From Lutibacter sp. (lineage in GTDB: Bacteria; Bacteroidota; Bacteroidia; Flavobacteriales; Flavobacteriaceae), in assembly GCF_013139515.1 (NCBI RefSeq), contig NZ_WTAR01000074.1, forward strand, positions 1 through 39,555: a stretch of 39,555 nucleotides of DNA, given 5' to 3'. How positions within the stretch are numbered: position 1 is the first letter of the stretch; each line of letters begins with the position of its first letter. A program made the translations under genes and the position numbers. The notes beneath the pieces were generated by a model that saw only the letters and a list, made by a program, of their open reading frames with translations, did no database searches and was not told where the DNA came from. This document shows, one piece after another, positions 6,760 to 29,372 of this stretch.

Positions 6760-6915
6760 TTTTGAATAACAAGTTTATATATATTTTTAAAAAAACCAAT
6801 TATAAATTTAAGTATAAAATAATTGGAATTATAAATGTTATAATTTACTTTTACAAAACCTAAAGAAAGTTCAAGAATATTTAATATTTTAACATTATTT
6901 ATAAAATATGGTTAA

Positions 6916-7005
6916 AATATTTACAGTCGTAATTGATTGATGCACAAAAGATTATCGTGGGGACGACAGTTTTTTTTCAAATCTGTTGCGGCTGTTTTAA
7001 ATATT
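6916..7005 (+). repeat. Structured repeat element 1 (long imperfect hairpin, conserved GTGGGGACGAC core)
   Basis: The arms pair AATATTTA (from 6916) with its complement ending at 7005, and CAGTCGTAA (6924-6932) with TTGCGGCTG (6986-6994). The two non-Watson-Crick positions in the second pair are U.G only in a plus-strand RNA. Near the centre is a small hairpin TCGT-GGGG-ACGA (6955-6966). The same architecture recurs in elements 2 and 3. It may be a structured RNA or a non-autonomous mobile repeat. The inverted repeats are directly visible; the function is not known. Confidence 0.7.
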
Positions 7006-7013
7006 ATTAACTC

Positions 7014-7104
7014 TTACATAATAAACAGTTGTAACATAAAATCTAATTATACTACCGTTGTGGGGACGACTTATTTGATTTTTTACAGCTGTTTTTTTAT
7101 GTAA
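7014..7104 (+). repeat. Structured repeat element 2 (long imperfect hairpin, conserved GTGGGGACGAC core)
   Basis: The left arm (7014-7034) and right arm (7083-7104) are complementary over about 20 of 22 positions. The inner part is AAACAGTTGTAA against TTACAGCTGTTT, with one U.G pair on the plus strand. The central hairpin is GTTGT-GGGG-ACGAC (7057-7070), again with one U.G pair. It begins only 8 bp after element 1. The right arm ends in a run of seven T, as in an intrinsic terminator. The outer arm differs from those of elements 1 and 3 but keeps its own pairing. Confidence 0.72.
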
Positions 7105-7274
7105 TTACTATTTTTTATTGTGTAACGCAACGTTTTATTGGCATAACAATTCTTCCTAATTTATTTTGAAACTCAAAATAAGGGGTTAATGTATTAATGT
7201 AAATTCTATTAGAATTGTTTTTTATTGCTTTGCTATTTTTTATTGTCTCTAAATTCATACTATTTAATTTCAGA

Positions 7275-7766
7275 TTAGCGTTTTATAAAAATTTGAGTAA
7301 AATAATTTCTGTTTTCTAAATCTTTACCTATTGAAATTCCAAAATGTGTATATGCATCATTTTCAATAATTTCTTTATGCTCTTTACTTTGTAACCAAGC
7401 TTCAACAACACCTTTAGCTGAATTAAACCCATAAGCTACATTTTCACCAACCATTTGAGCTTCTGCTTTTAGCACCAAGTTCTCATGCCTTTCTGGAAAA
7501 TTAAAATGATCAACCTTTCCTGTTTCAACCATATAATTAGTATGCGTTAAAGCTACAGATGAAACAATATTCATTTTTTCTAAAGCTTGTATTCCTTTTG
7601 TTTCTCTATGCATATTAACTAAATTAAATATGTCTAATTCTAGTTTTGAATATTCTTGTTTAACATCAGAAATTTCATTAAAATAAATTCCATCGTCTTT
7701 AACACAAGAGCTAAAAAGAATACTAAACAGAACAAATACTACTAATTTATAAGGTATTAACTTCAT
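7275..7766 (-). CDS. CAP-domain (SCP/YkwD-like) lipoprotein
   Basis: A 163-residue protein with a lipoprotein signal peptide (MKLIPYKLVVFVLFSILFSSC, Cys21 lipidated) and one CAP domain. CAP landmarks are FNLVNMHRETKG (47-58), SSVALTHTNYMV with His75, DHFNFPERHENL (His87), VGENVAYG (106-113), AWLQSKEHKEI (His130) and HFGISIG (141-147). Bacterial CAP proteins are extracytoplasmic and of mostly unknown role. It is isolated, with the structured repeats on both sides: elements 1 and 2 downstream, and element 3 only 17 bp upstream of its start. Fold is sure; function is unknown. Confidence 0.9.
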   Translation of the reverse strand: MKLIPYKLVVFVLFSILFSSCVKDDGIYFNEISDVKQEYSKLELDIFNLVNMHRETKGIQALEKMNIVSSVALTHTNYMVETGKVDHFNFPERHENLVLKAEAQMVGENVAYGFNSAKGVVEAWLQSKEHKEIIENDAYTHFGISIGKDLENRNYFTQIFIKR

Positions 7767-7783
7767 TCTAAAAGGGGTTTAAA

Positions 7784-7875
7784 TATAAAACACAGTCGCA
7801 ATTATTTATTATCTTCTTACTAACCGTCGTGGGAAAAAATTGGGTTAGATAATTTTATTGCGACTGCTTTTATAT
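7784..7875 (+). repeat. Structured repeat element 3 (long hairpin, variant centre)
   Basis: Perfect 10-bp arms CAGTCGCAAT (7793-7802) and ATTGCGACTG (7857-7866) are extended outward by TATAAAA/TTTTATA. An inner helix pairs ATTATCT plus AACC (7808-7814, 7822-7825) with GGTTAGATAAT (7843-7853), around a 7-nt bulge. The centre is CCGTCGTGGG followed by A-rich sequence, so the ACGAC half seen in elements 1 and 2 is missing. It contains TTCTTACTAACC and ACTGCTTT, both shared with the tandem units at 8046-8570. On the minus strand it would lie in or near the leader of the CAP-domain gene. Confidence 0.68.
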
Positions 7876-8045
7876 ATGTATATAGGTTGTACTATTTTTT
7901 TATTTGAAGAATAGCTAAAGTCACCAAAAATTAGTGTAAACGACTGTTTAAAATAAGTGTAGATTTTATTTTTTAACGCTCTGTTAATGAGTTTAACAGA
8001 CAGGACAGATAATAATGTATTCATGTCTTCGGGGTTTTGGCTTTT

Positions 8046-8310
8046 TTTGGGTTGATTTATTTATTCTTAATTATTTTCATAAAATTTAAAGAAGAAGCAG
8101 AAACAAAGTTCTTACTAACCATCTAACATCTTAAAGCTTTTTCGGACTGCTTTATTGAGTATGTGACTACAGTGTAACTACCTCTATTAAATTTCTTTTA
8201 ACCTTTCATAATTTCTTACTAATTAAATTATTACTTACTTTTTATTTTTGAATTTATTATCTCGTACCATTTAAGGGTTAAAAACAGTACCAAATAAAAA
8301 ATCAGCTTAT
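8046..8310. repeat. Tandem unit A (265 bp) with conserved core 8081-8200
   Basis: The unit starts with TTTGGGTTGATTTATTTATTC, repeated at 8311 (unit B) and at 8571, where it runs into the 3' end of marR. The core 8081-8200 differs from unit B at only about three positions, whereas the remaining part is visibly more diverged. The core holds TTCTTACTAACC (8109-8120), a closing helix AAGCAG (8095-8100)/CTGCTT (8147-8152), and GTGACTACAGTGTAACTAC. A 21-codon minus-strand frame (8057-8122) exists but is not convincing as a gene. Confidence 0.75.
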
Positions 8311-8323
8311 TTTGGGTTGATTT
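8299..8323 (-). terminator. Possible intrinsic terminator at the unit A/B junction
   Basis: AAATCAGC (8299-8306) and GTTGATTT (8316-8323) form a stem of about 7 bp with one mismatch. Read on the minus strand, it is followed by a T-rich run. It is the same hairpin that follows marR at 8559-8583, so unit B read on the minus strand would end with a terminator of its own. Confidence 0.45.
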
Positions 8324-8570
8324 ATTTATTCCTATTTCTTTTAATAAAATTTAAAGAAGAGGCAGAAACAAAGTTCTTACTAACCATCTAACACTTAAAG
8401 CATTTTCGGACTGCTTTATTGAGTATGTGACTACAGTGTAACTACCTCTATTAAATTTCTTTTAAATTTTCATAAATTCTTACTAATTAATTTATTACTT
8501 ACTTTTTTTTAATTTTTATAACTTGTATCATTTAGGGATTGAAAATAATACTATATAAAAATCAGCTTAT
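8311..8570. repeat. Tandem unit B (260 bp) with conserved core 8346-8464
   Basis: The second copy of the tandem unit. In its closing helix AGGCAG (8360-8365) pairs with CTGCTT (8411-8416), and the A-to-G change relative to unit A turns an A-U pair into a G.U pair on the plus strand. A hairpin of the AAATCAGC/GTTGATTT type (8299-8323) marks the junction with unit A, and the same hairpin stands at the junction with marR (8559-8583). Preferential conservation of the core suggests that it is the functional part. Confidence 0.75.
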
Positions 8571-8583
8571 TTTGGGTTGATTT
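8559..8583 (-). terminator. Intrinsic terminator overlapping the marR stop codon
   Basis: The arms are AAATCAGC (8559-8566) and GTTGATTT (8576-8583), with a T-rich run after the stem on the minus strand. The stem begins within the marR stop codon (8582-8584). The stem is AT-rich with one mismatch, so strength is uncertain. Confidence 0.5.
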
Positions 8584-9028
8584 ATTTATTCCTAATTTTA
8601 TTCAATAATTTGTTAAGAGTTAAAATTTCCTTGTTATTTAAATTTGCAACTATATCATTTTCAAAATTTGAATGAATATCATCAATTTCATCTAACAACT
8701 TTAAACCTTCATCAGTAATTCTAATTTCTACCTTTCTCCTATTCTCTTCATTCTGAATTCTAGTAATTAATCCTTTTAACCTTAGCTTCTCTACTAAACG
8801 TGTAGTGTTACTATTTTTGCTTACCATTTGAGATTGCAATGTTAAAAGATCTGCCGGTTTACCTTTCAATACTCTTAAAGAACGTAATACTTGAAATTGT
8901 TGAATAGATAATGCATATTGTTTAAGATGATCTGAAAACTTTTCATTCATCCAGTTACCTGTGTGCAAAATATTTGCAATTGTTAAATCAGGTAAATTTA
9001 GCTCATCATTTTCATTATTTATATTCAA
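8582..9028 (-). CDS. MarR-family winged-helix transcriptional regulator
   Basis: A 148-residue protein with the MarR layout: N-terminal dimer helix, QYALSIQQFQVLRSLR (about 39-54), the recognition segment LTLQSQMVSKNSNTTRLVEKL, the wing LKGLITRIQNEENRRKVEIRIT (about 85-106), and a C-terminal dimer helix ending LNKLLNKIRNK. The start is a TTG at 9028-9026; no ATG or GTG is in frame until residue 27. MarR proteins usually repress themselves and a neighbouring gene in response to small molecules. A palindrome lies across its own promoter (9060-9088). No obvious partner gene is adjacent, so the ligand and other targets are unknown. Confidence 0.9.
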   Translation of the reverse strand: MNINNENDELNLPDLTIANILHTGNWMNEKFSDHLKQYALSIQQFQVLRSLRVLKGKPADLLTLQSQMVSKNSNTTRLVEKLRLKGLITRIQNEENRRKVEIRITDEGLKLLDEIDDIHSNFENDIVANLNNKEILTLNKLLNKIRNK

Positions 9029-9461
9029 CTTCGGGGGGACAACTATTTTCTATACTACTATTGTATATACATCAAAAGTATGTACAATTATTATAACCAA
9101 CAACTTTTTTGTTAAAAACTTTTACTTTATTCTTATTTAAAGATTAAAATAACTACTTAAAACATACTTTTTTTAATGAAAGAGTAAAAATAAAATTATT
9201 GAAAATACAAATTTAATCGCCTTATTCCCAGTTAATTACAATAAAACATTATACTATCAAATTTTTATATTTATATAGTTTTTAATTAAAAATAGTTGCT
9301 GCTTTAAAAATGAATTATTTATAAATTGAAGTTTCTAAATTGTTAATAACTCAGTTTTTTGTTAATAAGAAAGGCCAAAAAAGGTTATGGATTACAGATC
9401 TGAAGTTAAAAAAATCATTCCTTTAAGGTAGAAATACTCCTGAAAATCACTCTTAATTGTT
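9029..9461. other. Intergenic stretch between marR and ligA
   Basis: Beyond the marR promoter/operator (9060-9088) this is AT-rich sequence without a recognisable gene. A 14-codon frame at 9387-9431 (MDYRSEVKKIIPLR) was noted but has no supporting context. A G-run (9032-9037) stands just before the marR start. Confidence 0.5.
9060..9088 (-). promoter_or_regulatory. Palindromic operator overlapping the marR -7 box
   Basis: ATTGTATATAC (9060-9070) and GTATGTACAAT (9078-9088) are inverted repeats matching at 10 of 11 positions around a 7-bp centre. On the minus strand the centre contains TACTTTTG (9080-9073), a good match to the -7 consensus TAnnTTTG. The predicted transcript start is about 38 nt before the TTG start codon. 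A dimeric regulator bound here would block RNA polymerase, which fits autorepression by the MarR protein. Confidence 0.6.
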
Positions 9462-29308: not shown

Positions 29309-29372
29309 CAAAATTAACCTCTGACGAAAATCGTGAATGTTGATTATTGGTAAAACCCATTAAAAGTTAAAA
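29309..29372 (+). promoter_or_regulatory. Candidate ribosomal-protein leader before rplS
   Basis: The ~65-nt leader is long for this genome. It contains the hairpin ACGA-AAA-TCGT and a second small helix in TTGGTAAAACCCA. A flavobacterial L19 leader motif has been described, and this is where it would be; I cannot align it here. Autoregulation by L19 binding is the working idea. Confidence 0.4.

Follow-up and report, generated by a model that had tools for sequence, protein, structure and literature searches.

What are the hairpin elements that surround a lone CAP-domain gene in a Lutibacter genome, and in what form and on which strand would they act? The window analysed here, i.e., the whole stretch of 39,555 nt, is one contig (C16) of a genome of 2.83 Mb. 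A preliminary description had noticed three hairpins (here E1, E2, and E3) with a common stem, and had proposed that they are folded plus-strand RNAs, with a miniature inverted-repeat transposon as the main alternative. All three elements are indeed present, with the CAP gene lying between E2 and E3 as described. On the evidence presented below, E1 and E2 are rather probably part of a multicopy base-pairing sRNA that would hinder translation of the neighbouring marR gene. The features of the locus are as follows:

6823-6853, plus strand: predicted promoter of the E1-E2 RNA (TTG - 20 nt - TACTTTTA), of the flavobacterial TTG/TAnnTTTG type
6883-6921, plus strand: H0, leading hairpin of the predicted transcript, an inverted repeat with 18-nt arms that are 89% complementary
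6920-7002, plus strand: E1, with outer stem P1 (6924-6932/6986-6994) and core ATCGTGGGGACGAC (6954-6967), then four T
7022-7099, plus strand: E2, with outer stem P1 (7026-7034/7083-7091), core GTTGTGGGGACGAC (7057-7070), and seven T (7092-7098)
7115-7258, minus strand: conserved small ORF of 47 aa after the CAP gene, convergent with E2, known from its translation and from tblastn relatives at both CAP loci
7275-7766, minus strand: gene for a CAP-domain lipoprotein-like product (Pfam CAP, E 1.7e-12), possible second target with CCCC before its ATG
7784-7875, no strand assigned: E3, a diverged relative with half-core CCGTCGTGGGA
7845-8024, minus strand: small ORF of 59 aa upstream of the CAP gene, whose 3' end overlaps E3, known from its translation, with like overlaps in several relatives
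8582-9028, minus strand: gene for a MarR-family regulator, the proposed target, with NCBIfam MarR-type matches below curated cut-offs and conserved as a neighbour
9035-9043, minus strand: proposed target site GUUGUCCCC, situated 6 nt ahead of the TTG start in the leader of marR

Each element folds better than shuffled sequence on the plus strand, with z values of -5.48 for E1, -5.17 for E2, and -4.1 for E3 (0, 0, and 1 shuffles per 200 as good, respectively). E1 (z -2.5) and E2 (z -3.5) fold less well on the minus strand, which is not the case for E3 (z -5.7). E1 and E2 have the tip (G/A)T(T/C)GT-GGGG-ACGAC in common, while E3 shares their outer stem and the first half alone of this tip (GTCGTGGGA). 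The imperfect pairs, previously read as U.G pairs of a plus-strand RNA, are borne out as such: two are found in the outer stem of E1, one in the outer stem and one in the tip of E2, and none in the outer stem of E3. A covariance model of the family described below matches E1 (E 3.7e-8) and E2 (E 6.8e-11), and E3 weakly on either strand (E 0.125 and 0.164); the latter is a diverged relative of the E1/E2 family.

A cmscan against Rfam 15 assigned the elements to no family at gathering score, and this includes Flavo-1 (RF01705), whose exclusion had been advised from the outset. A match to CRISPR-DR22 at 7219-7254 is at chance level, and those to mir-9457, SraG, Bp1_162, and mir-627 at one related locus (L147) or to RefA9 and EF3314_EF3315 at another (L136) are below gathering score and off the elements, and were likewise put down to chance. 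Far downstream in the window, the Rfam ribosomal protein leader L19-Flavobacteria is found at 29315-29342 on the plus strand.

The same tip occurs elsewhere in the genome, behind an OmpA-family gene (contig C54) and, in two copies, between gcvP and pdhA (C81), and the covariance model recognizes five strong copies in total in this genome. Among 60 relatives, the exact tip pattern is present in 34, that is, in 34 of 37 Lutibacter genomes, this one included, and in 0 of 23 from other families. The covariance model in turn matches 37 of 38 Lutibacter genomes, including all 29 of good quality, with 1 to 7 matches per genome. The search of Flavobacteriaceae that had been suggested as a check does find the family beyond this locus, in 7 of 397 genomes and 3 of 237 genera; across the order, the present genome is the only one matched among 296, and in both cases stricter filters, applied to sets of more than 40 genomes, may let weak relatives escape.

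A scan of named genomes yielded 74 contigs and, after removal of one cyanobacterial chance match, 73 loci, mostly from Lutibacter, with one from Urechidicola and the rest from Flavobacteriaceae or similar. Their genomic homes are few: 32 loci lie beside marR and a thioesterase gene, 30 behind an OmpA-family gene, and five between gcvP and pdhA (67 in sum), the remainder being two loci beside a CAP gene or small ORF alone and four without any query gene nearby. The usual order at the marR home is marR, E3, the CAP gene where present, the small ORF, the elements on the opposite strand, and the thioesterase gene. Copies at the OmpA home are located past the stop codon, in the same orientation as the gene, and in one genome (G047, contig C51) this home contains tandem duplicates together with decaying copies. 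In each of two Lutibacter genomes (G166 and G702), the element is matched once and a search for marR relatives at E 1e-20 finds none, as though the gene had been lost along with its adjoining copies. Several other matches to the pattern, at L012, L013, and L016-L019 in the family, at L133-L135 in viral contigs, and at L082 in Nodosilinea, form no hairpin by eye and were discarded as chance.

The alignment and the covariance model were built from 53 non-redundant copies, a subset of 95 with a CAG...CTG stem; another 17 of the 112 copies, many of them from the gcvP home, have no stem of the CAG type and were left out of the pair counts. Over the 95 copies, the nine outer-stem pairs comprise 735 Watson-Crick, 89 G-U, 8 A-C, and 23 other combinations. 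In the 53-row alignment, 8 of the 11 P1 pairs change on both sides, and the covariation score of P1 is 0.274, versus 0.170 for shuffled and 0.070 to 0.173 for slid versions (n = 53). RNAalifold, unaided, predicts nine of the outer-stem pairs, six of them with double changes. The sequence of the inner stem varies by home, and its own arms pair at -4.31, versus -2.55 for permuted arms (0 of 2000 as good). The compensatory changes and strand-consistent wobble first seen in the window are, in other words, a property of the family. This is not so for the outermost arms: these were correctly described as complementary within each of E1, E2, and E3, but a permutation test over the 53 members shows no significant fit of the 12 nt beyond the stem, with 273 of 2000 permutations pairing equally well, and the claim is therefore not extended to the family. 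The sole clear covariation beyond the stem is at the first pair outside CAG/CTG (A-U 27, G-C 17, G-U 4, U-A 2, unpaired 3). The family has the conserved structure with compensatory change that one would look for in a base-pairing sRNA.

The family also has a clear strand. The outer stem is more stable on the plus strand in 39 of 53 copies and on the minus strand in one, and at least seven T within 9 nt past the stem are present in 32 of 53 copies on the plus strand versus 10 of 53 on the minus strand. As to the features of intrinsic terminators, the stem is long and G+C-rich in part only, and the conserved tip is left unexplained by membership in this class. Save for its G/A and T/C positions, the tip is constant in all 53 rows, in part since the copies were collected with it, and the model matches inspected for sequence keep GTTGTGGGGACGA or the E1 form ATCGTGGGGACGAC. 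Taken together, family covariation, the asymmetry between G-U and A-C pairs, the T-runs, and a promoter strongly support E1 and E2 as plus-strand RNA. For E3, the signals favor neither strand clearly.

The promoter in question was predicted 5' of E1, with a transcript start at about 6858. In F. psychrophilum, the consensus TAnnTTTG is located at -12 to -5, and the box of the window fits both this consensus and this position, as they are given for that species (PMC9723704). The predicted transcript, 6858-7100, folds with a z of -4.99 and with H0 paired. Upstream of the first element, TTG-N16-21-TAnnTTT(G/A) is found at 26 of 26 distinct Lutibacter loci of the marR home on the thioesterase side (mononucleotide shuffles: mean 1.6, maximum 5). 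At marR loci without thioesterase, which are mostly from related genera, 4 of 12 have it (shuffled mean 1.1, maximum 4), and the figures are 1 of 6 at the gcvP home, 1 of 8 at other loci, and 1 of 30 at the OmpA home, counted over the 250 nt before the copies. The combination of promoter and terminator typical of a base-pairing sRNA is hence found at the Lutibacter marR home, with its 26 of 26 promoters and its T-run, and not at the other homes. Since a promoter of this type is not conserved at the OmpA home, the copies located there would be the 3' end of the OmpA mRNA.

What might such an RNA pair with? Its core GUUGUGGGGACGAC is complementary to GUUGUCCCC, which lies beside the marR start, the conserved TTG being a fitting start codon in Lutibacter. 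The sequence GTYGTCCCC is found just before this start in all 23 Lutibacter leaders and in 5 of 10 leaders from related genera; CCCC is present in 8 of these 10, and four of them end in GTTGTCCCCACAACA-ATG, i.e., 14 nt complementary to the tip with one G-U pair. One marR leader (L098) has no CCCC whatever. Outside the clade, GTYGTCCCC is absent from all 26 marR relatives examined, for which the mean duplex is -13.4, and CCCC occurs in three of the 26, after the likely start codon. The sample drawn for this comparison also held four loci from the clade, two with the exact site and two (L204 and L205) without. In the window, the predicted duplexes with the marR leader are -22.9 for E1 and -20.0 for E2. 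Against 22 Lutibacter leaders, a 28-nt core, picked once the leaders had been seen, pairs at -24.7 kcal/mol versus -10.6 for shuffles, with 0 of 500 shuffles as good and 1 of 500 when GGGG is kept; against the 10 leaders from related genera the value is -27.6, with 0 of 500 as good whether GGGG is kept or not. Related species are counted as separate in these tests. Complementarity to a translation start is weaker with a 14-nt core, for which 5 of 500 shuffles are as good with the Lutibacter leaders, and 37 of 500 when GGGG is kept.

At the scale of the genome, GTYGTCCCC is found eight times (five for a control pattern), namely in the five element copies, the marR leader, the start of tmRNA, and once inside a reading frame. 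A wider regulon did not emerge: CCCCAC near ATGA occurs at seven sites versus eight for the control, and the CAP gene is the only clear gene start among the seven. One of them, L171, was rejected as a gene start because the Met lies inside a longer frame, and neither the gcvP/pdhA copies nor L163 and L164 adjoin a target of this kind. Also set aside was GTAGTATAG in the Lutibacter marR leader, which is complementary to the element block CTATACTAC and was considered as an extension of the pairing, because its order is wrong for one continuous duplex and because it lies within an operator region that is seen outside the clade. Many Flavobacteriaceae (L206-L231) have a palindromic block of the ACAANNGTTGTATATACAA type before marR that, by eye, looks like an autoregulatory operator. 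At six loci (L029, L073, L078, L086, L105, and L160), a C-rich block (TCCCCAC, or TCTCCAC in L073) precedes the element of related genera by about 60-90 nt and could pair with the element's own GTGGGGA tip.

The CAP gene may be a second target, although a weaker candidate than marR. CCCC is found upstream of the start in 88% of 34 CAP genes of the clade versus 1% of 308 background starts; outside the clade, 2 of 23 CAP genes have it, and four more loci gave no start. Against shuffles that retain GGGG, pairing with the CAP leaders has no significance (76 and 94 of 500 as good), so that the case for this mRNA as a target comes from the CCCC pattern. Flanking of a CAP gene, as first noticed, is not a fixed trait of the elements, since 10 of the 19 named loci with both marR and thioesterase in view have no CAP gene, yet keep the element and the small ORF. 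This ORF (7115-7258) is retained at 10 of 10 complete marR-home loci without CAP and has no Pfam or NCBIfam match; its product belongs to an undescribed type of small protein of 47-60 aa with the motif IYINTL.P.F, which is encoded behind CAP at both homes (also at L010, L027, and L028). In four loci from genera without the element (L185, L190, L191, and L195), the CAP gene is followed by a shared TGATAACTTAATTGTTATT...TTTAGCTTTAGGTA-like block and, after it, a hairpin resembling a terminator; this could be a further sRNA or 3'-end element.

On the other side of the CAP gene, the small ORF at 7845-8024 has no NCBIfam match, and the frame overlapping E3 reads, by eye, SRN...FPQR in some relatives. 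A looser pattern collected 17 E3-like elements, one of them (L061) from the OmpA home. Their outer stems are nearly all Watson-Crick (137 of 153 cells), with five G-U and 10 A-C pairs, and are more stable on the plus strand in 10 cases and on the minus strand in seven. With so weak a strand signal, E3 was dropped as a proven target hairpin. Between marR and the CAP gene, a repeat of about 265 nt is present in two copies (8040-8246 and 8305-8510) that are 88-95% identical over the matched parts. It contains GAGGYAG...CTGCYTC arms and a GGTTAGTAAGAA block, the latter being found in E3 too and recurring in relatives; the region 8075-8200 folds no better than shuffles.

The family with its structure, strand, and homes, the promoter of the Lutibacter marR home, and the clade-specific complementarity are thus established by computation; from them, we infer transcription of E1-E2, pairing in the cell, repression as the direction of control, and any role of E3. 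E1 and E2 would be two hairpins of one sRNA of about 140-240 nt, initiated at the promoter 6823-6853, terminating at either of the two T-runs, after E1 or after E2, and belonging to a multicopy family present in Lutibacter and two related genera. Copies at the other homes would constitute a 3' end downstream of an OmpA-family gene, or lie between gcvP and pdhA, where they may simply add dose. Each copy would form one long hairpin, with a covarying outer stem doubling as terminator stem, a covarying inner stem, and a tip hairpin GUUGU-GGGG-ACGAC. The tip would pair with GUUGUCCCC, or with GUUGUCCCCACAAC in some related genera, on the mRNA of the adjacent marR gene, beside its start codon, and hinder initiation of translation; in related genera, the contact may be loop against loop. 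CAP mRNAs with CCCC before AUG could be a second target. As for E3, its reverse strand could act as a target hairpin in the mRNA of CAP and the small ORF, or the element could be conserved through the small ORF that it overlaps. A possible, if doubtful, history is that the sRNA family arose in the clade along with its target site, marR gaining GUUGUCCCC while the sRNA multiplied beside marR and behind the OmpA-family gene next to CAP.

Several other explanations were weighed against a base-pairing sRNA. The elements could be RNA terminators or 3'-end stabilisers with a protein-bound tip, acting on their own transcript alone, the fit to marR being a by-product. The sense orientation of the OmpA-home copies after a stop codon, with the promoter type in a single case of 30, speaks in favor of this, as do the T-runs past the stem and the convergent placement against the small ORF. 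We nonetheless consider it unlikely, as the Lutibacter marR-home copies have a conserved promoter of their own, a terminator has no need of a fixed 14-nt tip, and the complement in the marR leader is clade-specific. Another possibility, compatible with the sRNA explanation, is an antisense pair in which the element strand would be the regulator and E3, read on the reverse strand in the CAP/small-ORF mRNA, the target hairpin. E3 does retain the half of the core able to pair with E1 and E2, its outer stem is overwhelmingly Watson-Crick across relatives, and the window copy has the better z on the minus strand; the strand signal in the 17 E3-like elements is nevertheless small, and the overlap with the small ORF can account for the conservation of E3, which makes this arrangement fairly unlikely.

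Mobile DNA, either the miniature inverted-repeat transposon initially put forward or a REP-like hairpin, would likewise be non-autonomous and repeated, and the hairpins do recur at three main homes, with local tandem duplication and decay in G047. It is however a very improbable source of the family: copies are few in each Lutibacter genome rather than many and scattered, three conserved homes, and thus orthologous places, account for 67 of the 73 named loci, the stems show strand asymmetry and compensatory change, and no transposase was seen by eye in the ORF lists. No more credible is a function at the DNA level, in which the hairpin would fold as a single strand, as in an attC-like recombination site, or would serve as a decoy operator bound by MarR. 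Single-stranded DNA would also yield an asymmetry of G-T over A-C, and the block CTATACTAC of the elements is similar to a stretch of the marR operator region in Lutibacter, but promoter and T-runs fit an RNA, the marR leaders of related genera are devoid of CTATACTAC while their elements retain ATACTACC or similar, and no integrase was seen by eye in the ORF lists.

Should the joint origin of sRNA and target site sketched above hold, a surface gene would be coupled in its expression to both a MarR regulator and a CAP lipoprotein by one shared loop, possibly through loop-loop contacts, and E3 might be a target hairpin built into the system. Work on flavobacterial sRNAs has covered few cases so far, and flavobacteria do not depend on the customary ribosome-binding sequence. 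The family thereby raises the question of how an sRNA could block translation start in such bacteria, and offers a compact system in which to address it: the 14-nt tip is nearly invariant, a single best target carries a matching site specific to the clade, the promoter is defined, and copies exist both alone and behind another gene. It also illustrates how covariation in public genomes can lend support to an RNA of genus-level distribution that Rfam does not contain. The family appears to be new as a family, its kind being that of small RNAs: the titles and abstract openings listed for small or noncoding RNAs of Lutibacter, flavobacterial sRNAs, the tip or loop, and MarR with sRNAs in Bacteroidetes, a body of literature with most subscription papers and all preprints outside it, contain no account of it.

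Comparison with known systems helps to situate these RNAs. Qrr RNAs are multicopy base-pairing sRNAs with a common pairing segment, and the likeness, drawn by description, is that a genome has several nearly equal copies whose pairing segment does not vary; unlike the Qrr RNAs, the Lutibacter copies arise in different ways, from their own promoter or as the 3' end of another gene, and have different stem sequences. CopA-CopT are loop-loop antisense RNAs, of which the G-rich hairpin loop is reminiscent, as it faces a possible C-rich loop hairpin (GUUGU-CCCC-ACAAC) in four of the 10 marR leaders from related genera; in contrast to CopA-CopT, the Lutibacter family is not transcribed opposite its proposed target. 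Flavo-1, listed as a structured RNA motif of Bacteroidetes (PMC2864571), is alike in being a structured RNA from this phylum, and differs in that its model does not match the elements. Another parallel, again drawn by description, is the Rfp18 sRNA of Flavobacterium psychrophilum, which is also flavobacterial, strongly structured by prediction, conserved beyond the species, and predicted to pair with several mRNAs via one stem-loop (PMC9723704). Rfp18 acts on metalloprotease mRNAs and was tested by deletion (PMC9723704), whereas the Lutibacter family is multicopy, is found in Lutibacter and two related genera, and has another predicted target.
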